Shown here piece by piece: positions 10,990 through 62,170 of a stretch of DNA of 64,000 nucleotides; position 1 is the stretch's first letter, and the number at the start of each line of letters is the position of its first letter. The position numbers and the translations under genes are program-made. Location: the NCBI GenBank assembly GCA_039555135.1, contig CP114179.1:1116001-1180000 (forward strand), read 5' to 3'. This DNA is from Phycisphaeraceae bacterium D3-23 (GTDB lineage: Bacteria; Planctomycetota; Phycisphaerae; Phycisphaerales; Phycisphaeraceae). Below the pieces are notes generated by a model, which saw only the letters and a program-made list of their open reading frames with translations, did not search any database and was not told where the DNA came from.

Positions 10990-11072
10990 AGACGATCGTG
11001 CTACGGTAGTGGCCGATGATCTGGGCCTTCGAGGATACAAACGCACCCCAGTTGAATCGCGCGCGTTACATT

Positions 11073-11180
11073 CGGGGTGCCACACAACTGCCCGTAGGGC
11101 TGCTGTGTGAGACGGCGCTTTATCGCCTGGAGTCGCAGCACACAGCAGGCCTGCGGACAGGCCAGTTGTGTGGCACCCCG
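11073..11180. repeat. 108-bp multi-stem palindromic element (TGCCACACAACTG ends)
   Basis: The outer arms are an 18-bp perfect inverted repeat: CGGGGTGCCACACAACTG (11073-11090) and CAGTTGTGTGGCACCCCG (11163-11180). An inner 10-bp stem pairs CTGCTGTGTG (11100-11109) with CACACAGCAG (11139-11148). The apical part holds a small GGCG...CGCC stem. It fills much of the 322-base gap between the converging DUF58 and DUF4159 genes. The only other structure in that gap is the terminator at 11241-11275. I see no ORF in it that I would trust. Confidence 0.8.
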
Positions 11181-11240
11181 GGTGTTACGTTCTCTCTGAG
11201 CTACGAATCAGCCCTCGGCGTGAAGACGATGTGCGCGTGT

Positions 11241-16259: not shown

Positions 16260-17507
16260 ATGCCGCTCCCCTGCGAAAGCCCCAGGCAAGCCGCCCTCAC
16301 GGTCATCCGCACCCTGCGGTCGGCGGGACACACCGCCTACCTCGCGGGCGGCTGCGTGCGCGACGCCCTGCTCGGGCTGGACCCCAAGGACTACGACGTC
16401 GCCACCGACGCCACACCCGACAGAGTCCAACAGCTTTTCCCCAGCACCGCCGCCGTGGGCGCGGCCTTCGGCGTCGTGCTGGCCTACATCCGCAAGCCCG
16501 GTCCAGGCCGACACACGATCGAGGTCGCCACTTTCCGCGCCGACGGCCACTACGCCGACGGCCGCAGGCCCGACGACGTCCGATTCACCACCGCCCAGGA
16601 AGACGCCCAGCGCCGCGACTTCACGATCAACGGCCTCTTCGCCGACCCACCCCCGGAAGACGCGCGCGAGGGCACGCAGGACACCATCATCGACTACGTC
16701 GGCGGGCAGGCGGACTTGAAGCAAGGCGTGATCCGCGCGATCGGCGACCCCACCGCCCGCTTCGGCGAGGACTACCTCCGCATGCTCCGGGCCGTTCGGT
16801 TTGCCGCGCGGTTTGGGTTTGCCATCGAGCCCAAGACAGCGCAGGCCATCAAGCAGCACGCCCCCAAGCTCGACCAGATCGCCCGCGAACGCATCGGGGA
16901 TGAGGTACGAAGGATGGTGATGGGTAAGCATCCGCCGATCGCAGTGCAACGTCTGTACGACCTGGGCCTGGACCGCACGATCTTCGACGCCCCCGCCCAG
17001 GATCTCAATACCGAGCCCCTCGAACGCTTGAGCGATCAGGCCCACTACGCAACGCGCCTGTCGGTTTGGATGCACGGCCGGACACCGATGCAAGGCGTAA
17101 AAGCGATCAGGCAGGCGCTGATGCTGTCCAACGAAGAGTGCGACGACTATCGCGATCTCATGGGATTGACCGCAGAATTGTCTCATTGGGACGGCGCTTC
17201 GGTCGCCGCGCGAAAGCGCTTGGCCAGCCACCGCCAATGGCCCCAGGCCATGACGAAGTGGGAGGCGACTTTCCTCCGCGATTTCATCGAACGCATCAAG
17301 GCCGATGTTGCGGCATTACAAAACGACGGCATCGGCCTCGCCCCCGCCCCCTTCGTCACCGGCGACGACCTCATCGCGCTGGGCCTCAAGCCCGGCCCAC
17401 ACTTCAAGACCCTCCTCGACCAGACCTACGACGCCCAGCTCGAAGGCCGAGTCAAGACCAAACAAGAAGCACGCACTTTCGCGCAAGCGAGATCGAGTGA
17501 ACAGTAG
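16260..17507 (+). CDS. cca: CCA tRNA nucleotidyltransferase / poly(A) polymerase family protein
   Basis: This 415-residue class II nucleotidyltransferase should add or repair the 3' CCA of tRNAs. It has the G-loop and catalytic motif LAGGCVRDALLGLDPKDYDV with the DxD carboxylates, then RRDFTINGLFAD, and the flexible-loop and head region ending near RMLRAVRFAARFGF. The C-terminal helical part (about 250-400) lacks an HD phosphohydrolase motif. I chose ATG 16260 (MPLPCESPRQ); the frame is open upstream but not protein-like. The TAG stop lies inside the palindromic repeat that begins at 17495. Poly(A) polymerase cannot be excluded from sequence alone. Confidence 0.9.
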   Translation: MPLPCESPRQAALTVIRTLRSAGHTAYLAGGCVRDALLGLDPKDYDVATDATPDRVQQLFPSTAAVGAAFGVVLAYIRKPGPGRHTIEVATFRADGHYADGRRPDDVRFTTAQEDAQRRDFTINGLFADPPPEDAREGTQDTIIDYVGGQADLKQGVIRAIGDPTARFGEDYLRMLRAVRFAARFGFAIEPKTAQAIKQHAPKLDQIARERIGDEVRRMVMGKHPPIAVQRLYDLGLDRTIFDAPAQDLNTEPLERLSDQAHYATRLSVWMHGRTPMQGVKAIRQALMLSNEECDDYRDLMGLTAELSHWDGASVAARKRLASHRQWPQAMTKWEATFLRDFIERIKADVAALQNDGIGLAPAPFVTGDDLIALGLKPGPHFKTLLDQTYDAQLEGRVKTKQEARTFAQARSSEQ

Positions 17508-17581
17508 GTAGTGAACAGTTCACAGTGAACAGCCAAGCCAATGCTCCTCACTGTTCACTGTTCACTCCTCACTGTTCACTC
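17495..17581. repeat. AGTGAACAG-type palindromic element at the cca stop codon
   Basis: The 5' arm is made of repeated AGTGAACAG-like units (GAGTGAACAG at 17495, GTGAACAGTTCAC further in). The 3' arm is made of the complement (CACTGTTCACTGTTCACTCC, then CTCACTGTTCACTC). The TAG stop of cca is supplied by the 5' arm. A relative of this element (AAACAGTGAACAG...GCACTGTTCACTG) is inserted in frame in mutS at 32678-32753. Confidence 0.85.
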
Positions 17582-17612
17582 GCTTTAGCGCAATCCCCTG
17601 TACGCTGTCCCC

Positions 17613-20781: not shown

Positions 20782-20917
20782 GGGTTAGGCGCTAGGGCCT
20801 AGGGCCTAGCGCGCCATGTTTCGCATGTGCAAACGTATTGGATAGCCAAACCGACCCACCCGGATCTGAAACACCGAGCTTGGTGCTCCAACCTAAGCCC
20901 TAAGCCCTAACGCCTAC
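20778..20917. repeat. TAGGGCC-type palindromic element that carries both flanking stop codons
   Basis: The 5' arm (20778-20812) begins GTAGGGGTTAGG and contains repeated TAGGGCC heptamers. The 3' arm (20891-20917) is repeated CCCTAAG ending CCTAACGCCTAC. The arms are complementary with a few mismatches around a loop of roughly 80 bases. The terminal GTAGG of the 5' arm supplies the TAG of the GH130 gene. The terminal CCTAC of the 3' arm supplies, on the other strand, the TAG of the convergent membrane-protein gene. Confidence 0.85.
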
Positions 20918-27159: not shown

Positions 27160-27254
27160 ACGAAACTCCTGTGTGGGTGCCCGGGTCTGATTAGATAGAG
27201 GAGCGCGCCGGCGGTGTCAAGAGAAAACCGCAGTATTCTTGGTTGTTTAGGAGG

Positions 27255-29882
27255 CTACAGCACCGACACCGGGTCGACGTCGATCGCGGTGTGGTGGTCG
27301 CTGATGAGCCGGCCCTGGTTGCGCAGCGCGGTCATGAGTTTTTGCAGCGGCGCGGCCGAGGGTGCCAAGAGCTGGACTTCGAGCCGGTGGAAGTCCGCGA
27401 CCCGGCCGATCGCGCAGGGGTGGGGCCCGCGCAGGCGGACACCGAGCTGCAACTGCTCGTTGGCCGACCGCAGGTCGTTGGCCAGCTCGTGCGCGCGGCG
27501 CTGCGCGGCGGCGTGGTCCGTGTCACGCAGGACGATCCGCACCAGCCGGCCCACCGGCGGGAGCATCATCTCTTGGCGGATCGCGATCTCCTCCTTGGCA
27601 AAACCTGCGTAGTCATGCTTTGCGGCCCGACGCACGGCCGGGTCGTCCGGGGCGAACGTCTGCAAGACCACCCGACCCGCCGCTTCGCTGCGCCCGCTCC
27701 GCCCGGCGACCTGCGCGATGAGCTGGAACGTCCGCTCCCGCGCCCGAAAGTCGGGGAAGTTCAGCGCGGTATCGGCGCTGATGACCCCGACCAGACGTAC
27801 GCCCGGGAAGTCGAGCCCCTTGGCGATCATCTGCGTCCCCAGCAGGATATCGATCTCGCCCCCCCGGAACTTGTCGAGCGTCCGCTGATAGTCCTCGGCG
27901 TTCTTCATCGTGTCCGAATCCATCCGCGCGATCGCCGCCCCCGGGAACTTTTCGCGTAGCTCGTCTTCTACTTTCTGAGTACCGAGGCCGAACACGGTCG
28001 TCTTCTTTCCGCAGTCGGGGCAGCTTCGCGGCAGGACCTGCTCGGCCGTGCAGTGGTGGCATCGGACGACGCCGCCCAGCGGCAGCCGGTGATCGCGGTG
28101 GTACACCATCGATGCGTCGCAGTGGTCGCAGCACATCAGCCAGCCGCACTTGTGGTCCGGGCACGCGATGTAGTTCGCGTAGCCCCGGCGGTTGAGCAGG
28201 ACCATCGCCTGGCCGCCCGAAGGGGCCGAGGGGTCGAGGGGCCGAGGGGCCGAGTGTTGCGTGTATCGCGTGTCTTGTGTTTTCTCACTTGGCCCCTTGG
28301 CCCCTTGACCCCTTGACCCCTTCCCCCCAAGCGTTTGGGCCAGCCGCTGCTCCAGGCGCGTCGACAACAGGTGGATGCCCCGGCGTCGGCGTCGCTCTTC
28401 GATCAGGTCCACGATCTCCACCGCCGGCAGCCGCATCCCCGGCACCCGGTCGGGCAGGTGGAGGTAGTGGGCATTCGATGGGCGATGGGCGATCGCGGAT
28501 GGCGGATCGGCGGAAGCTGTAGGCAGAGTCGATTCCCCGATTTCCATCCGCCATCCGCCATCCGCCATCCGCCATTGCGCGGCGTTGTAGTAGCTCTCCA
28601 GCGAGGGCGTCGCGCTGCCCAGCACGACGGGGACGCCTTCGATCTGGGCGCGTTTGATGGCGACGTCCCGCGCGTGGTAGCGCGGGAGCTGGTCCTGTTT
28701 GTAGGAACTGTCGTGTTCTTCATCGACGATGATGAGGCCGAGGTTCGTGACCGGCGCGAACACGGCCGATCGCGCCCCGACGACGATGGTCGCCTTGCCG
28801 TCGTGGATCCGCCGCCACTGGGCGTGGCGCTGCGCGGCGGTGAGCCCGGAGTGCAGGACGGCGACACGCTCGCTGCCGAAGCGTGCGAGGAACCGGCCCA
28901 CGGTCTGCGGCGTAAGCGCGATCTCGGGGACGAGGATGATGGCGGCGGGCGGGGAGGAGGGAGAAGGGGCCCAGGGGTCGCGGGGCCCGGGGGGCGAGTG
29001 CTGCGCGGAGGCAGCGTCTTGTGATTCCTCACTTGTCCCCTTGGCCCCTTGGCCCCTGGGCCACTCGCGCAGCGCCGCGATCGCGCGGAGGTAGACCTCG
29101 GTCTTGCCGCTGCCCGTGACGCCGTGCAGGAGGTGGACGCCGAATCGGTCGGCGTGCTGCGCGAGGTGCTCCACCGCGGATCGCTGCGCCGCGCCCAACG
29201 TAACCTCCGTGTCGGCTTCGCCCACCTCCCGCGCCCGCAGGTCGAGCGTGGACTGCACGACATCGCGGTGCTCAGCGACCAGCACGCCCTTCTCGATCAG
29301 CTGCGACACGGGGCCGCGCGTCTTTGCGCCGGCACGATCGGCCAACTCCCGCGTGCCGATCCATCCGGCTTGCGAAATCGCGGCGTCGAGCAGGGCCTGC
29401 TGCAGCTTCGTGAGTTTGACCGGCGAGCCGTTATCTTGCGACGGCAGGGGCTCGGCGGGCCGGACGACCTGTTTGCGACGCGTGCCCGTGCCCCGGGTCA
29501 CGGCCGCAGGCAGCATCGCGCCAAACACCATGCCCAGCGGGCAGACGTAGTACGACGCGACCCACTGCGCCAGCGTGACGAGGTGCCCGGAGAGCGACAC
29601 GCCGCCGGGCGCGGGCTTGGTGATCGGCTTGATCTTCTTGGCATCAAGCTCGACCTTGTCGCGCAGCCGGATGACGTAGCCCGTCGCGCCGCGGTTGCCC
29701 CGGCCCAGCGGGACGACGACGCGCTGCCCGACCGCGACGGGCTCGAGCTTTTGCGGGACGCGGTAGGTGAGCCCGGTCGGCGCGGCGTCGATCCCGCGCT
29801 CGATCGCGACGTCGGCGAAGCGCTCGCCGGGCTTTGGCGCGTCGTCATCGTCGGGGTTGTCGTGTGGGAACAGGCCAGCCAT
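27255..29882 (-). CDS. priA: Primosomal protein N' (PriA helicase) with three in-frame repeat insertions
   Basis: PriA recognises stalled forks and reloads the replisome. The 875-residue protein starts at ATG 29882 (MAGLFPHDNPDDDD). It has the N-terminal 3'-binding domain, Walker A GVTGSGKTEVY, LVPEIALTPQT, the DEEHDSSYKQDQLPRYHARD box, the zinc site (CPDHKCGW, CCDHCDAS, CHHC, CPDCG) and helicase motifs GTQMIAKGLDFPGV and QVAGRSGR. It is about 140 residues longer than usual. The excess is three low-complexity insertions at about residues 274-311, 436-470 and 519-556. All lie in spacers between conserved motifs and are encoded by palindromic repeats. mutS is divergent, beyond a small TM-protein gene. 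Confidence 0.93.
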   Translation of the reverse strand: MAGLFPHDNPDDDDAPKPGERFADVAIERGIDAAPTGLTYRVPQKLEPVAVGQRVVVPLGRGNRGATGYVIRLRDKVELDAKKIKPITKPAPGGVSLSGHLVTLAQWVASYYVCPLGMVFGAMLPAAVTRGTGTRRKQVVRPAEPLPSQDNGSPVKLTKLQQALLDAAISQAGWIGTRELADRAGAKTRGPVSQLIEKGVLVAEHRDVVQSTLDLRAREVGEADTEVTLGAAQRSAVEHLAQHADRFGVHLLHGVTGSGKTEVYLRAIAALREWPRGQGAKGTSEESQDAASAQHSPPGPRDPWAPSPSSPPAAIILVPEIALTPQTVGRFLARFGSERVAVLHSGLTAAQRHAQWRRIHDGKATIVVGARSAVFAPVTNLGLIIVDEEHDSSYKQDQLPRYHARDVAIKRAQIEGVPVVLGSATPSLESYYNAAQWRMADGGWRMEIGESTLPTASADPPSAIAHRPSNAHYLHLPDRVPGMRLPAVEIVDLIEERRRRRGIHLLSTRLEQRLAQTLGGKGSRGQGAKGPSEKTQDTRYTQHSAPRPLDPSAPSGGQAMVLLNRRGYANYIACPDHKCGWLMCCDHCDASMVYHRDHRLPLGGVVRCHHCTAEQVLPRSCPDCGKKTTVFGLGTQKVEDELREKFPGAAIARMDSDTMKNAEDYQRTLDKFRGGEIDILLGTQMIAKGLDFPGVRLVGVISADTALNFPDFRARERTFQLIAQVAGRSGRSEAAGRVVLQTFAPDDPAVRRAAKHDYAGFAKEEIAIRQEMMLPPVGRLVRIVLRDTDHAAAQRRAHELANDLRSANEQLQLGVRLRGPHPCAIGRVADFHRLEVQLLAPSAAPLQKLMTALRNQGRLISDHHTAIDVDPVSVL
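28217..28328 (-). repeat. GGGGCCAA-armed palindromic element in priA (copy 2)
   Basis: On the coding strand the 5' arm repeats GGGGTCAA/GGGGCCAA and the 3' arm repeats GGCCCCTCG/GACCCCTCG. The loop reads AGTGAGAAAACACAAGACAC, then a stretch ending CGCAACACTCGG. It encodes GQGAKGPSEKTQDTRYTQHS and APRPLDPSAPS in PriA. Loop and frame match the copies at 28950 and in mutS at 31071. Confidence 0.88.
28475..28577 (-). repeat. GGATGGC-armed palindromic element in priA
   Basis: On the coding strand the 5' arm is a run of GGATGGC heptamers. The 3' arm is its rough complement (GCCGATCCGCCATCCGCGAT then CGCCCATCGCCCATCG). The element encodes WRMADGGWRMEIGES and ADPPSAIAHRPSNA, placed directly after the conserved GSATPSLESYYNA motif. 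The heptamer array recurs in lipB. Confidence 0.85.
28950..29062 (-). repeat. GGGGCCAA-armed palindromic element in priA (copy 1)
   Basis: On the coding strand the 5' arm is GGCCCAGGGGCCAAGGGGCC-like and the 3' arm is rich in CCCC blocks. The loop reads ACAAGTGAGGAATCACAAGA, then GCGCAGCACTCG. It encodes RGQGAKGTSEESQDAASAQH and SPPGPRDPWAPSPSSPP between the helix after Walker A and the LVPEIALTPQ strand of PriA. Confidence 0.85.
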
Positions 29883-29913
29883 GTGGCGATTGTAGACCGC
29901 CCGGGAGCGTGCG

Positions 29914-30393
29914 CTATTCGAGGACGGGGATGCCGAAGAACTCAAGCGGCGGCCGGGTCGTCACGGGCTGGGTCGGCGGCGCGCCAGGCAACGCGCCGGC
30001 CCCCGGTGTCGCGACGGCCGGCGCGGGCTGTGGGAGGTGTGCCGGAACGTTTGTCGTATCGGTATCGGCCGAGTCCGAGTTCGGTGAATCGGACTGCGCC
30101 GACGTGCCGCGCTCGTTCGGCGCGTCCACCGATGTATCCGCTAACCCGCCGGGCTCGGCGGGCTGCCGTGTTGCCGTCGATCCATCGGCCTGACCGCCCG
30201 GCCGCGCGGGATCCACCTGCGCGATCGCTTCGCCTTGGGCCGGGCCTTTGCCCTCGAACCACCCGTCGGCCAGGACCACGATCACGACCGACAGGTTGAC
30301 CATCAGCATCGCGCTGAGCAGCACGACCAGCGCGCCTTGGCGCGGCGGCTTGCCCGTCGTGTTCACAGAAGTCCTGGGGCTGGGGTCGGGCAT
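29914..30393 (-). CDS. Single-TM protein with Pro/Ala/Thr-rich extracytoplasmic part
   Basis: This 159-residue predicted protein starts at ATG 30393 (MPDPSPRTSVNTTGK). One membrane segment lies at about residues 20-43 (ALVVLLSAMLMVNLSVVIVVL). The rest is low-complexity, rich in Pro, Ala, Thr, Asp and Gly, ending LEFFGIPVLE. It precedes priA on the same strand by 31 bases and is probably co-transcribed with it. No function is recognised; the composition suggests a flexible linker protein. Confidence 0.65.
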   Translation of the reverse strand: MPDPSPRTSVNTTGKPPRQGALVVLLSAMLMVNLSVVIVVLADGWFEGKGPAQGEAIAQVDPARPGGQADGSTATRQPAEPGGLADTSVDAPNERGTSAQSDSPNSDSADTDTTNVPAHLPQPAPAVATPGAGALPGAPPTQPVTTRPPLEFFGIPVLE

Positions 30394-30584
30394 CTTCTCT
30401 CGCGGGGGGGCGATCGGTCGGAGCGCTTGGGGTCTGGTCGGCCGATCGGGGAGGCGGGGTGGGGCATTGTACCCCGGGCCGGCGTCGATAGCACAAACTC
30501 GCATGCGCTACCCCGTGCAGGTGATACAGACCGGCCGTACGGACGGCGGGCGTGGTGATCGTTTTGATGCGGTACAGTACGCCG

Positions 30585-33572
30585 ATGGCGGAGGCGACCC
30601 AGAACAAGAAGAAGACAGACGGGGCGGCCGGCGAGGCGACGGTCAAGGAAGGCGTCAAGCCGCCCAAGCCCGTGAAGCCCGGCAAGGGCGCGGACACGCC
30701 GGCGATGCGTCAGCACCGGCGGTTCAAGGAGCAGCACCCGGGGTGCGTGCTGTTCTTCCGGATGGGCGATTTTTACGAGATGTTTTTCGAGGACGCGGTG
30801 CTCGCACACAAGACGCTGGGGGTGACACTGACCCAGCGCAGCGAAGGCGTGCCGATGGCGGGCGTGCCCTACCACGCGGTCGAGGGCTACCTCCGGCGGA
30901 TGATCCAGGCGGGCCACCGCGTCGCCGTGTGCGAGCAGGTCGAAGACGCCAAGGACGCCAAGGGTGTGGTGAAGCGCGACGTCACGCGCGTCGTCACGCC
31001 GGGCACGCTGACCGACGAGTCGCTCCTGGAAGAGGGCGAAGAGAACCCGCTCGCCGCCGTCGTGTTCCACGGGGAAGGGGGCAAGGGGCCGAAGGGACAA
31101 GGGGCCAAGGGGACTAGTGAAAGACAAGAAAAACATATCACCGCGCAACACTCGGCCCCTAAGCCCCTGGGCCCCTCGGCCCCTTCCCCTCCCACCGCCT
31201 CGATCGCCTGGGCCGAGCTCTCCACCGGGGCGTTCCACGTCGCCACCGTGCCCGAGGACCAGCTCATCGACGAACTCGCCCGCATCGCGCCGCGCGAGCT
31301 GATCTACTGCGAGACCGCGACGGGCGAGATGCCCGAGCGCGTCGCGCGGCTCGAACAAGCCCTCGGTTGCGCGGTCACCGGTCGGCCCGGCTGGCAGTTC
31401 CGATTGAATGAGGCGGGCGAGGCGCTGCGCCGGCAGTACCAGGTCGCGCAGCTCGGCGGCTTCGGGTTCGACGACGACGACAAGGCGCTCATGGCCGCGG
31501 GCGGCGTCGTCCACTACCTGCTCGAAACCCAGCGCGCCGATGCGGATGGCCGGCTGGCACACCTGCGCCCGCCCCGGCGGTTTGAGCGCGCCAAACACCT
31601 CGTCATCGACCAGGCCTCGCTCCACGCCCTCGAGGTCGACCGCACGCTCCGCAGCGGGCAGGTCGAAGGGTCGCTCTTGGGCATCTTCAAGGGCAAGACC
31701 GGGCCCGTCACCGCGATGGGCAAGCGTCTGCTGCGTCACTGGCTGTGCTACCCGCTCGCCGACCGCGAAGGCATTGCGCAGCGCCAGCGGGTCGTCACCG
31801 CGATGGTCGGCGACGAGCGGTTCCGCGACGAGCTTCGCAGTGCGGCCGACGACGTCCACGACATCGAACGCATCACCGCCCGCCTCGCGGTAGGCCGGGC
31901 GACCCCGCGCGATCTGGTCGCGCTGGGCCGGAGCGTCGCGCAGGTCCGCGCGGTCCACACCGTCCTCGACGGCCGACCCAGCGAGCAGGCCTACCTCGAC
32001 CGGGTGAGCGTCCTGCTCGAACCGCTCGAACAACTGGGCCAGTCGATCCTGGACACCTGCATCGAAGCGCCGCCCGCACACCTGCGCGAGGGCGGGCTCA
32101 TCCGCGACGGGGTCGATGTAAAGCTCGACACCCAGCGGTCGCTGCAGCGCGACAGCCACGCCTGGCTCGCGCAGTACCAGGCCGGGCTGTGCGAGGCGTC
32201 GGGCATCCCGTCGCTCAAGGTCGGCTACAACAAGGTCTTTGGCTACTACCTCGAAGTCACCGCCGCGAACAAACACAAAGCCCAGGCCTACATGGACCAG
32301 ATTGCGGCGGATGGTGGATCGAACGGCGGATGGGCGCGCAAGCAGACGCTCAAGAACGCCGAGCGGTATGTGACGCCGGAGCTCAAGGAATTCGAGGGCA
32401 AGGTCTTGAGCGCCGAGGGCCGGGCCGTGGCACGCGAGCAGCACCTCTTCGCCGAGCTGTGCGCTGAGGCGCAGGCCCTGATCGATGAGCTGCACGGGTT
32501 CGCGGCCGTCGTCGCCGAGCTTGATGTTCTGGGTGCCTTCGCCGCGCGGGCGGTGCGTTCGCGCTACGTCTGCCCGACGATCGTGGACGGCCCCGTGCTC
32601 GACATCGAAGCGGGCCGGCACCCGGTGCTGGATGAGCTGCTGGGGGATCGGTTTGTGCCCAACGATGTCTCTTTGGGAGTAAACAGTGAACAGTCCACAG
32701 TGAACCGCGAGGAAAGCAAGGACTATTCACGGGGCACTGGGCACTGTTCACTGGCTTTGATCACCGGCCCGAACATGGCGGGCAAGTCGACCTACATCCG
32801 CCAGACCGCGCTGATCACGCTGCTCGCGCACACCGGCTCGTTTGTCCCCGCCGACCGCGCGGTGGTCGGGCTCACCGACCGCATCTTCACGCGCGTGGGC
32901 GCGAACGACGAGCTCCATGCCGGGCAGTCCACCTTCATGGTCGAGATGACCGAGACGGCCAACATCTGCCACCACGCGACCGGCCGCTCGCTCGTGATCC
33001 TCGACGAGATCGGCCGGGGCACGAGCACGCTCGACGGGCTCTCGCTCGCGTGGGCGATCGCCGAGCACCTTGCCGGGGCTGGGGCAGACGCCGGCGGGCG
33101 CGGCCCGCGCACTTTGTTCGCGACGCACTACCACGAGATCACCTCGCTGGCCGAGCGCTACGACAGCGTGACGAACCTGAGCGTGACCGTGCGCGAGTGG
33201 CAAGACGAGATCGTCTTCCTCCACCGCATCGCGCCCGGCGCAACCGACCGCAGCTACGGCATCCACGTCGCAAAAATCGCCGGCCTCCCCCCCGCTGTCA
33301 TCGACCGCGCCAACCAGCTCCTCGCCGAGTTGGCCGTCAACCACGCCGGCCACGTCTCGCCCGGCAGCGCGCAACGCAGCGCCAGCGATCGCGCATCGAC
33401 CGGCCCGGCCAACCTAGCCCCGCTTCCCCCGCAGCTCTCGCTCTTCACCGAGCACGCCGACCACCCGGCGCTGGCCGAGCTGCGCGGCATCGACCTCAAC
33501 GCGCTTACCCCGCTGCAGGCTTTCGATGCGCTGCGTCGGCTCTCCGACATGCTGGGCCCGCAAGACGCCTGA
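30585..33572 (+). CDS. mutS: DNA mismatch repair protein MutS with two in-frame repeat insertions
   Basis: MutS detects mismatches and drives repair. The 995-residue protein starts at ATG 30585. Domain I has FFRMGDFYEMFFEDA with the mismatch-probing Phe-x-Glu. Later come the connector, lever and clamp regions, and the ABC ATPase: Walker A GPNMAGKSTYIRQ (about residue 728), LVILDEIGRGTSTLDGLSLA (signature and Walker B) and LFATHYHEIT. It is about 130 residues longer than E. coli MutS. Two insertions explain much of this: residues 163-203 (GKGPKGQGAKGTSE and following, domain I/II junction) and about 699-722 (VNSEQSTVNREESKD to HCSLA), ending five residues before Walker A. Both are palindromic repeats. 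Confidence 0.95.
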   Translation: MAEATQNKKKTDGAAGEATVKEGVKPPKPVKPGKGADTPAMRQHRRFKEQHPGCVLFFRMGDFYEMFFEDAVLAHKTLGVTLTQRSEGVPMAGVPYHAVEGYLRRMIQAGHRVAVCEQVEDAKDAKGVVKRDVTRVVTPGTLTDESLLEEGEENPLAAVVFHGEGGKGPKGQGAKGTSERQEKHITAQHSAPKPLGPSAPSPPTASIAWAELSTGAFHVATVPEDQLIDELARIAPRELIYCETATGEMPERVARLEQALGCAVTGRPGWQFRLNEAGEALRRQYQVAQLGGFGFDDDDKALMAAGGVVHYLLETQRADADGRLAHLRPPRRFERAKHLVIDQASLHALEVDRTLRSGQVEGSLLGIFKGKTGPVTAMGKRLLRHWLCYPLADREGIAQRQRVVTAMVGDERFRDELRSAADDVHDIERITARLAVGRATPRDLVALGRSVAQVRAVHTVLDGRPSEQAYLDRVSVLLEPLEQLGQSILDTCIEAPPAHLREGGLIRDGVDVKLDTQRSLQRDSHAWLAQYQAGLCEASGIPSLKVGYNKVFGYYLEVTAANKHKAQAYMDQIAADGGSNGGWARKQTLKNAERYVTPELKEFEGKVLSAEGRAVAREQHLFAELCAEAQALIDELHGFAAVVAELDVLGAFAARAVRSRYVCPTIVDGPVLDIEAGRHPVLDELLGDRFVPNDVSLGVNSEQSTVNREESKDYSRGTGHCSLALITGPNMAGKSTYIRQTALITLLAHTGSFVPADRAVVGLTDRIFTRVGANDELHAGQSTFMVEMTETANICHHATGRSLVILDEIGRGTSTLDGLSLAWAIAEHLAGAGADAGGRGPRTLFATHYHEITSLAERYDSVTNLSVTVREWQDEIVFLHRIAPGATDRSYGIHVAKIAGLPPAVIDRANQLLAELAVNHAGHVSPGSAQRSASDRASTGPANLAPLPPQLSLFTEHADHPALAELRGIDLNALTPLQAFDALRRLSDMLGPQDA
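31071..31193 (+). repeat. GGGGCCAA-armed palindromic element in mutS
   Basis: The 5' arm is a G-block array (GGGGAAGGGGGCAAGGGGCC and on to GGGGCCAAGGGG). The 3' arm is a C-block array (GGCCCCTAAGCCCCTGGGCC and on). The loop, ACTAGTGAAAGACAAGAAAA then CGCGCAACACTCGG, matches the loops of the two priA copies. It encodes 41 residues, including GQGAKGTSERQEK and TAQHSAPKPLGPSAPS. Confidence 0.88.
32678..32753 (+). repeat. AGTGAACAG-type palindromic element in mutS
   Basis: AGTAAACAGTGAACAGTCCA at the 5' end is complementary in part to GGCACTGTTCACTGG at the 3' end. The same type of element stands at the cca stop codon (17495-17581). It encodes VNSEQSTVNREESKD...GHCSLA in the strand-loop just upstream of the MutS P-loop. 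Confidence 0.82.
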
Positions 33573-33857
33573 CCACTAGACCAACCCGAACACTGCTCAC
33601 GATACGCCCTCCAGGCATCTGTTGGCCGGTCAATCGTCTCGGCGCTAAGGTCAAAACCTGATTCCAGACAAAAAACAGCCATTCTTGAAGAAAGGACTTC
33701 CCTTTCAAATACTTCATTCGTATTATATTCATAAGTGCGTGATCCCCCTCGCGGCCTGCCGGCCTCCCCCCACTCCGGCAGGTCGCACTTTTTTAAAGCC
33801 CCTCCAATCCGTCCCGCCCGGCTCCTTACAATATCGCCCCACCCTTGGAGCGACGCT
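33573..33857. other. AT-richer intergenic stretch after mutS
   Basis: No gene is seen. The centre (33670-33740) is clearly AT-richer than its surroundings (CTTCATTCGTATTATATTC), which would fit a promoter for the downstream membrane-protein gene, but I cannot place clean -35/-10 boxes with correct spacing. GGAG at 33847-33850 is the ribosome-binding site for the TTG start at 33858. Confidence 0.4.
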
Positions 33858-60238: not shown

Positions 60239-60377
60239 ATCCGTAAACCTTTATTATCCCGACACTTCCGAGCCCACGGGAACACCCCGCAAGCCAAGAA
60301 GGCGATGATCCCCAAGACACCATGCCGCAGGGAGCCCCGCATTGTAGCGGGGTGGGGATTTTGGAGCAATCGCCCTA

Positions 60378-60459
60378 ACGAGCCGCGACCGTGAGGGAGC
60401 GGACCGACCACCGCGTGTTCTTCAATCCCAGGGTCCGCTCCCTCACGGTCGCGGCTCGT
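60378..60459. repeat. Perfect 28-bp inverted repeat GCGACCGTGAGGGAGCGGAC
   Basis: Arms at 60378-60405 and 60432-60459 are perfect reverse complements over 28 bp, with a 26-base loop. The 5' arm matches the half-copy read in frame in the TMTC-like gene (36639-36666) at 26 of 28 positions. It lies in the gap between rpsO and the gene at 60550. An arm of another repeat, GCGACGGCTAAC, follows at 60498-60509. No gene is seen in the gap. Confidence 0.92.
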
Positions 60460-60549
60460 TGATAGCGCGGACAACGCCACGACGCGTCGCCGCGGCGGCG
60501 ACGGCTAACAACCCTTCGTTTCCGCGCACTCCCCGGGTAAGATCAACCC

Positions 60550-62017: not shown

Positions 62018-62170
62018 GTAGGACAGGCATTCCTGCCTGTCACAGGCCGAAGGCCTGATCGGGATCAAAGGTGAGTTGTTTCGGCTTCGCCGAATGGCAG
62101 ACAGGAATGTCCGCCCCACTCAAGGCATTTGGGCTGCGCCCAATGACAGGCAGGAATGCCTGTCCTACCT
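62018..62170. repeat. GTAGGACAGGCATTCCTGCC palindromic element
   Basis: The outer arms, GTAGGACAGGCATTCCTGCC plus TGTCA (62018-62042) and the exact complement (62146-62170), match over 25 bp. Inside are AGGCCgaaGGCCT, TTCGGCTTCGCCGAA and GGCAGACAGGAATGTC, a second copy of the motif in part. It separates the dehydratase from the ACP gene. Partial relatives lie at 57186-57225 and 55186-55210. Confidence 0.88.

Follow-up and report, generated by a model that had tools for sequence, protein, structure and literature searches.

The window analysed here, a 64,000-nt stretch of contig CP114179.1 of Phycisphaeraceae bacterium D3-23 (GCA_039555135.1, positions 1,116,001 to 1,180,000), contains the neighbouring genes mutS and priA, whose reading frames run through five inverted arrays of short tandem units (Table 1). 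Coordinates are positions within the window unless a genome code is given, G000 being the studied genome. Three of the arrays, one in mutS and two in priA, belong to the G8 family of inverted octamer-array elements (unit AAGGGGCC), each with G-rich octamers arrayed to the left of a loop and C-rich octamers to its right. The arms of the mutS element (31079-31119 and 31149-31189) enclose a loop at 31120-31148, those of priA copy 1 (28219-28256 and 28286-28323) pair over 38 nt around a 29-nt loop, and priA copy 2 (arms 28965-29000 and 29030-29065) separates helicase motif I (GSGKT) from the IILVPEIALTPQ strand. Arm pairing in the mutS copy and priA copy 2 is 78-80% over 36-41 nt, with a 29-nt loop. 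All three share the loop text AGTGA...CACAAGAC...GCGCAACACTCGG, more loosely in mutS, and are read on their gene's own strand as GQGAKG(T/P)SE...QHS(A/P)P. The original prediction, made from the letters of the sequence, had described these three elements with their G-rich and C-rich arms, common loop text and own-sense peptide, and this description stands.

The other two arrays (28478-28575 in priA and 32684-32753 in mutS) consist of heptamers and are inserts additional to the three predicted. Strict period-matched inverted arrays numbered six in the window and four in a 400-kb sample of G000, versus none in either of two first-order resamplings of each, and the arrays are thus not due to chance. 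An exact-pattern search for AGTGAAC matched only the window copy near 17510. No Rfam family matched the region 27200-33600 of the window at gathering score.

Table 1. Arrays and host genes in the window, and valyl-tRNA synthetase loci with a REP-associated tyrosine transposase (RAYT) domain in other parts of the data set
Feature	Position	Strand	Remarks
G8 (AAGGGGCC) inverted octamer-array element, mutS	31071..31190	+	covariance model E 1.7e-26
G8 element, priA copy 1 (C-terminal half)	28215..28330	-	covariance model E 8.7e-29
G8 element, priA copy 2	28956..29066	-	covariance model E 4.9e-26
ATGGCGG 7-mer inverted-array element, priA	28478..28575	-	in frame; other unit and loop
AGTGAAC 7-mer inverted-array element, mutS	32684..32753	+	in frame; directly before Walker A motif
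mutS, host gene	30552..33572	+	NF003810, TIGR01070; single MutS match in genome
priA, host gene	27255..29945	-	TIGR00595
AGTGAAC 7-mer inverted array	17494..17582	.	periodicity barely below the strict threshold; not spanned by an open reading frame
TAGGGCC/CCTAAGC 7-mer inverted array	20786..20916	.	83-nt loop; not spanned by an open reading frame
RAYT in ValS, L053	G000:C1:1599850-1600254		
RAYT in ValS, L359	G040:C33:16573-16977		
RAYT in ValS, L358	G052:C2:477574-477984		

A core pattern of the G8 element occurred at six places in the genome. The alignment of these six folds into a single long hairpin (26 pairs), and the covariance model built from it, with matches on the two strands merged, recovered 34 distinct places at E<=1e-8 (41 at E<0.02), scattered across the 4.62-Mb contig. 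The mutS copy and the two priA copies are the three best matches of this model, which was itself partly built from them. The element measures about 100 bp and comprises about four octamers (AAGNNNCC), a loop and an inverted array, the octamer being AAGGGGCC or AAGTGGCC; some weaker places carry AAGACGCC units. The loop edges AAGTGA... and ...GCGCAACACTCGG are conserved and common to many copies at unlinked loci. Twenty-two copies (G-type) have mostly GGGG units and 12 (T-type) mostly GTGG or GCGG units, and all units of both arms switch octamer together between these subfamilies. This concerted change is the oddest feature of the family and is unexplained by ordinary copying and divergence. 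Arm-by-arm compensatory change was rejected, as arms within a subfamily match no better than shuffled arms (782 observed vs 783.4 expected), and a quadruplex function is unneeded, since the GTGG-unit copies lack G-tracts.

Judged by flank codon use, through-reading frames and homology, 21 of the 34 copies are inside genes and 13 outside; copies 7 and 22 pass the automatic in-gene test but are counted as outside, because the neighbouring gene merely begins there. Given a predicted coding fraction of 0.868 (400-kb sample), the probability of finding 21 or fewer of 34 in coding sequence (CDS) is 2e-4, so that genes are under-used but not avoided. Hosts assigned by NCBIfam are MutS, PriA (two copies), RuvB, an SNF2-type helicase, a RarA-type AAA ATPase, TGT, QueG, ValS, LeuS, MiaA, NadA, AcsA, PurL, GltB, AtpG and an HscA/DnaK-like protein. 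One acetyltransferase-like host has a Pfam GNAT domain match, and copies 19, 24 and 26 lie in two further genes that appear acetyltransferase-like by eye, from similarity to the GNAT-domain host; the gene of copies 24 and 26 had no match in NCBIfam or Pfam scans. DNA replication, recombination or repair proteins hold six of the 21 gene copies and tRNA-charging or -modifying enzymes five, which gives the impression, judged without a genome-wide category baseline, of an enrichment in replication, repair and tRNA genes. Among the copies outside genes, copy 21 is located between genes read by eye as groES and groEL. The ATGGCGG family has further hosts in a RecJ gene (two arrays) and in a Dus tRNA dihydrouridine synthase. 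The valS open reading frame (ORF; L053) contains, inside ValS, a further repeat-like stretch that reads SRDREGADPGG...GPLPDGRGS.

We compared 14 hosts, representing 13 of the 21 gene copies and the weaker copy 35 (E 1.5e-5), with three genomes of the same genus (G001, G002, G003) and one of the same family (G026) by seeking the host flanks; copies 4, 8, 19, 24 and 26 were left out of this set, and mutS and priA were compared separately. For 13 of the 14 hosts the insert was clearly absent in at least one relative (the alignable genome being only G003 for copy 6 and only G002 for copy 35), and the elements are therefore insertions. PriA copy 1 is absent from the PriA of 12 of 12 relatives, and none of the 18 relatives aligned over the mutS site has the full element, of which G002 retains a left-arm remnant. 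Residues at these sites are thus not conserved protein sequence. G002 shows a weaker model match at the site of priA copy 2 (G002:C14:96649-96757, E 1.3e-9) and shares the RuvB insert with G000. At the same position in QueG, G002 has GGGG units and G000 GTGG/GCGG units. The corresponding place in TGT of G026 is taken by a 7-mer array (GTTTCGA units); an extra peptide in RarA of G026 resembles such inserts by eye and was not flagged as an array. The edges are not clean at the codon level, a few host codons being different or replaced.

An 8-base repeat traverses three frames per 24 bases, and with this period AAGGGGCC reads GAKGPRGQ and TCGGCCCC reads SAPRPLGP in whatever frame. Neither unit has a stop on either strand. 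The original idea that elements are tolerated because one frame is open is an understatement: all six frames pass through the octamer arms without a stop, and closure is due to the loop alone. One open frame passes through the element in 20 of the 21 gene copies. The common frame of the three predicted elements does not extend to the genome, where the left landmark AAGTG takes two frames (10 and 10 of 20 gene copies); the right landmark (CAC TCG or a degenerate form) keeps to the reading frame in 17 of 20 and falls in the second frame in the other three, the third never being used (chi-square P 4e-6, copies treated as independent).

Their common orientation does extend. Strand scores differ by at least 5 bits in 22 of the 34 copies, and all 16 of these that lie in genes are sense; five unclear gene copies were dropped, two leaning sense by 2.7-3.5 bits (24, 27) and three antisense by less than 1 bit (10, 28, 32). 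Six clearly oriented copies are intergenic, four of which have one-strand neighbours and are all co-oriented with them (12, 13, 18, 21), leaving room for transcription-linked insertion; the intergenic copies that point against their neighbours are all without clear orientation. The grand average of hydropathy of the 21 gene copies is -0.93 in sense vs -0.25 in antisense, and that of the 13 other copies -0.65 vs -0.35. Sense-only orientation would follow from selection for a hydrophilic, disordered peptide or from transcription-coupled insertion. Two further causes were rejected. The replication strand fails because the 22 clearly oriented copies divide into 11 leading and 11 lagging, counted by hand from an origin placed roughly near 2.5 Mb by GC skew in sampled stretches. 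Stop avoidance fails because antisense open frames are about as frequent as sense ones (40 sense and 35 antisense in 20 gene copies; 13 and 19 in 17 other copies, which include three weaker than 1e-8 and copy 19, later assigned to a gene). A DnaA search gave matches near 2.08 and 2.39 Mb, the second DnaA-like match (G000:C1:2388477-2389837) being in two pieces 18 bases apart.

Of the internal stretches of PriA that score below 50 in the predicted local distance difference test (pLDDT) of its AlphaFold model, the longest three (residues 279-307, 440-469 and 524-556) coincide with the three inserts (273-311, 438-471 and 520-558), and in the model of MutS both inserts are below 50 (165-198 and 701-718). 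The models were built on alignments of 13 rows for PriA and 18 for MutS, and a shallow alignment can also lower confidence. The low predicted confidence at the inserts, each of which lengthens its protein by 30-40 residues, fits flexible loops.

The same protein sites are occupied by arrays of other units in other genomes, making the pattern wider than the single family originally described. At the mutS site before Walker A (residues 708-733 of the G000 protein), eight of 21 genomes have an inverted 7- or 8-mer array, with units AGTGAAC (G000), AAGGGGCC (G002), AGTGATG-like (G013), TCGGGTC-like (G010), GGGTCTG (G032), GGGATTG-like (G012, the weakest), GGGGTCT (G018) and AGTCCAG (G031). Elsewhere in the mutS ORFs we found three other inverted repeats (G010, G018, G022), none of which is an equally strong strict 7-8-mer array. 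Among 12 relatives scanned, 7-mer arrays occur at the site of priA copy 2 in G029 and G013, and arrays at the priA ATGGCGG site in G002 and G013. In a class-wide search, three of nine newly fetched loci were in dnaE, and two genomes of different genera in one family (G268 and G147) have different octamers at one dnaE site. In G010, five of the 16 stretches fetched around ATGGCGG arrays have the element in an N-terminal leader directly before a prepilin motif (FTLIE, FTIVE, FTLVE or FTIME), and two of three such peptides scanned passed the Pfam N_methyl cut-off. These leader arrays (L366, L372, L374, L378, L379) are in frame, and maturation would remove the extra peptide.

The covariance model (R1) matched nine of 61 genomes at E<=1e-5 and, class-wide, at least 24 of 298 genomes at E<=1e-6 with 13 candidates scored per genome, G000 included in both counts. 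Units vary between genomes, and both arms agree within each: G030 has AAGTGGCC, three of the four loci shown retaining the loop edge AAGTGAAAGAC; G010 has AAGGCACC; G027 has AAGGGACC and related units; and in G029 the unit has 7 bases and is close to GGGGCCA. Contigs of Planctomycetota, Verrucomicrobia, Gemmatimonadota and Desulfobacterales likewise contain inverted arrays, and 905 kb around 80 mutS genes contained seven strict arrays (five of period 7, one of 8 and one of 12).

Rickettsia palindromic elements (RPEs) are palindromes of about 100-150 bp that occur in frame in core genes, adding 30-50 residues, and also in intergenic DNA. The G8 elements resemble them as palindromes in frame in protein-coding genes and differ in that their arms are tandem octamers, which RPEs are not known to have, and their host is a 4.6-Mb genome of another lineage. 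Cyanobacterial short tandemly repeated repetitive sequences and small dispersed repeats are similar in their short tandem units and in being mobile and very small. Both comparisons are by description only. RPE-1, -4 and -6 are mentioned in a paper on intragenic repetitive extragenic palindromes (REPs) with a GTAG or CGTC tag (PMC3733652), according to which such palindromes lie in ORFs, many of them DNA synthesis or repair genes, others tRNA synthetases and tRNA pseudouridine synthases, and different REPs occupy about one recB site in two Xanthomonas. REPs are described there as 20-40 bp long and mostly intergenic. The G8 elements share with intragenic REPs the position of palindromes in ORFs, the repair and tRNA genes and the different units at one site; unlike REPs, they are about 100 bp long, consist of octamer arrays, lack the tag in the six-copy consensus and lie in CDS in 21 of 34 cases, and unlike REPs and REPINs they directly flank no RAYT gene of G000. 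GGGAATC heptamers of Xanthomonas and Nostoc (PMC4692102) are tandem 7-nt G-rich units with 70 and 75 inverted repeats of facing arrays. The likeness to tandem G-rich units in two facing arrays is evident, whereas the G8 units are 8 nt long (AAGGGGCC, AAGTGGCC vs GGGAATC/GGGGAYT), most copies found are in genes, and the arrays regularly form an inverted pair, as the model itself imposes. Searches of open-licence papers brought up none whose title or abstract deals with inverted 7-8-mer arrays in genes of this group.

The G8 elements are probably a dispersed, non-autonomous, hairpin-forming mobile family retained where its peptide is harmless. Copying is indicated by loop edges common to unlinked sites that are empty in relatives, and the predicted spread of a tolerated family into coding DNA is borne out by further copies, 34 in all with 21 in CDS and 13 outside, and by the empty sites of 13 of 14 hosts. 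An enzyme acting in trans would insert the copies, which selection would then sort. A copy landing in a gene would survive if its 8-base-period arms, stop-free in every frame, let translation pass, if its loop is open and its length keeps the frame, and if the target is a flexible loop and the sense peptide hydrophilic and disordered. From position, structure and sense orientation we infer that retention in genes proceeds via this tolerated, hydrophilic, frame-independent peptide. The leading candidate for the mobiliser is a RAYT, on grounds of co-occurrence: a RAYT match was present in nine of nine genomes with the element vs 32 of 52 without (P=0.02, uncorrected for completeness or kinship). 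G000 has three RAYT matches (1.313, 1.600 and 3.887 Mb), the nearest element being 1.2 kb away, within valS. Viral contigs searched with one exact core pattern for phage carriage gave no match.

Several observations speak against a mobile family of this kind. No target-site duplication was recognised in the codon-level comparison, the relatives being too distant to exclude one. The HscA-like host (copy 32) has a loop largely common to G002, and G026 may show a paralogue. Twelve of the 34 copies are without clear orientation and were left out of the strand count, and copies 8, 19 and 26 are in related acetyltransferase-like genes, so that the 16 sense copies are not fully independent. MutS residues 867-888 and 921-957 are also below pLDDT 50 and are not inserts. 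Whole-element copying predicts related loops, but the loops of four ATGGCGG places look unrelated, although some ATGGCGG copies in G010 do have common loop text. RAYT matches also occur in 32 of the 52 element-free genomes, and none of the three in G000 directly flanks a copy. Finally, copy 4 does not fit cleanly into the frame of miaA. At its locus (L043, G000:C1:986765-992869), the miaA reading uses two frames on either side of the element, reflecting either compensating frameshifts or sequence errors; a 7-mer peptide of the HPPSPIPHPPS type follows further downstream.

That the elements are of REP/REPIN type and moved by a RAYT is unlikely. The co-occurrence above and the three matches in G000 agree with it, as does the preference of intragenic REPs (PMC3733652) for DNA repair and tRNA genes, which hold 11 of the 21 gene copies here; the missing GTAG/CGTC tag and the lack of a directly flanking RAYT gene do not, three of the nine element genomes (G010, G027, G029) have no RAYT match that reaches the family cut-off, and G026 has no RAYT match and yet a 7-mer array in TGT, although this array belongs to another family. 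Birth of the arrays in place, by replication slippage and template switching at hairpins (quasipalindrome correction), appears distinctly unlikely. It would suit the homogeneity of units within an element and the match of both arms, the concerted octamer switch between the G-type and T-type subfamilies, the same-site pairs with different units in QueG (G000/G002) and DnaE (G268/G147), and the four ATGGCGG places with unrelated-looking loops, but not the G8 loop edges common to unlinked loci, and arm matching at the shuffled level gives no sign of copy-by-copy arm correction.

The original prediction had also allowed for local duplication between mutS and priA, and three copies within 3 kb are indeed the three top scores of the model partly built from them; this origin is very improbable, as 31 other places are spread over 4.6 Mb, the loop nearest to that of priA copy 1 belongs to copy 8 at 4.37 Mb, 3.2 Mb away (score 15.5, compared with 15.0 for priA copy 2 and 10.0 for mutS), and no flanking similarity was noticed by eye. 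Ancestral conserved protein segments that merely look repetitive by composition are hardly conceivable, despite the few sites shared with the nearest relative G002 (RuvB, QueG, the HscA-like loop), given the relatives clearly lacking the segment for 13 of 14 hosts, the absence of priA copy 1 and of the full mutS copy from all relatives compared, and the same DNA at 13 places outside genes.

Some further repeats were seen beside these elements. A RAYT domain (NF047646, above cut-off) lies in frame inside valyl-tRNA synthetase ORFs of three genomes from two families, apparently at one site (Table 1); ValS was assigned by NCBIfam in L053 and L358 and by eye in L359. The palindrome TAGGACAGGCATTCCTGCCTGTC at window positions 62018-62168, which resembles by eye the flanks of the transposase inside valS, has members of the same family in the 400-kb sample (L165, L176). 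An inverted repeat at 60377-60460, AACGAGCCGCGACCGTGAGGGAGCGGACC, is perfect over 29 nt, encloses 26 nt and has a near copy in L172, and a nested palindrome with GGTGCCACACAACTGCC-type arms (11064-11189) has kin at several places in the sample (L164, L169, L170, L171, L172).

As a tentative and rather doubtful generalisation, the G8 elements may exemplify a general class of bacterial mobile element in which repeated copying of a single 7- or 8-base word builds the arms. The word could then change simultaneously in all units of both arms, with loop edges and site unaltered; its period, indivisible by three, would let the arms be read in every frame; and families with different words would repeatedly re-enter shared loop sites in replication, repair and tRNA proteins throughout a bacterial class. 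In the 4.6-Mb genome of D3-23, palindromes inserted in frame into core genes are numerous, one family having 21 or more copies in genes, and because several families with other units are found at the same protein sites, a target preference of the DNA becomes testable against tolerance of the folded protein. The elements suggest a design principle in which stop-free units of a length that is not a multiple of three allow DNA to land in any frame. Sequences of MutS, PriA, RuvB, DnaE or synthetases from such genomes may contain mobile DNA by which alignments and structure predictions are led astray.

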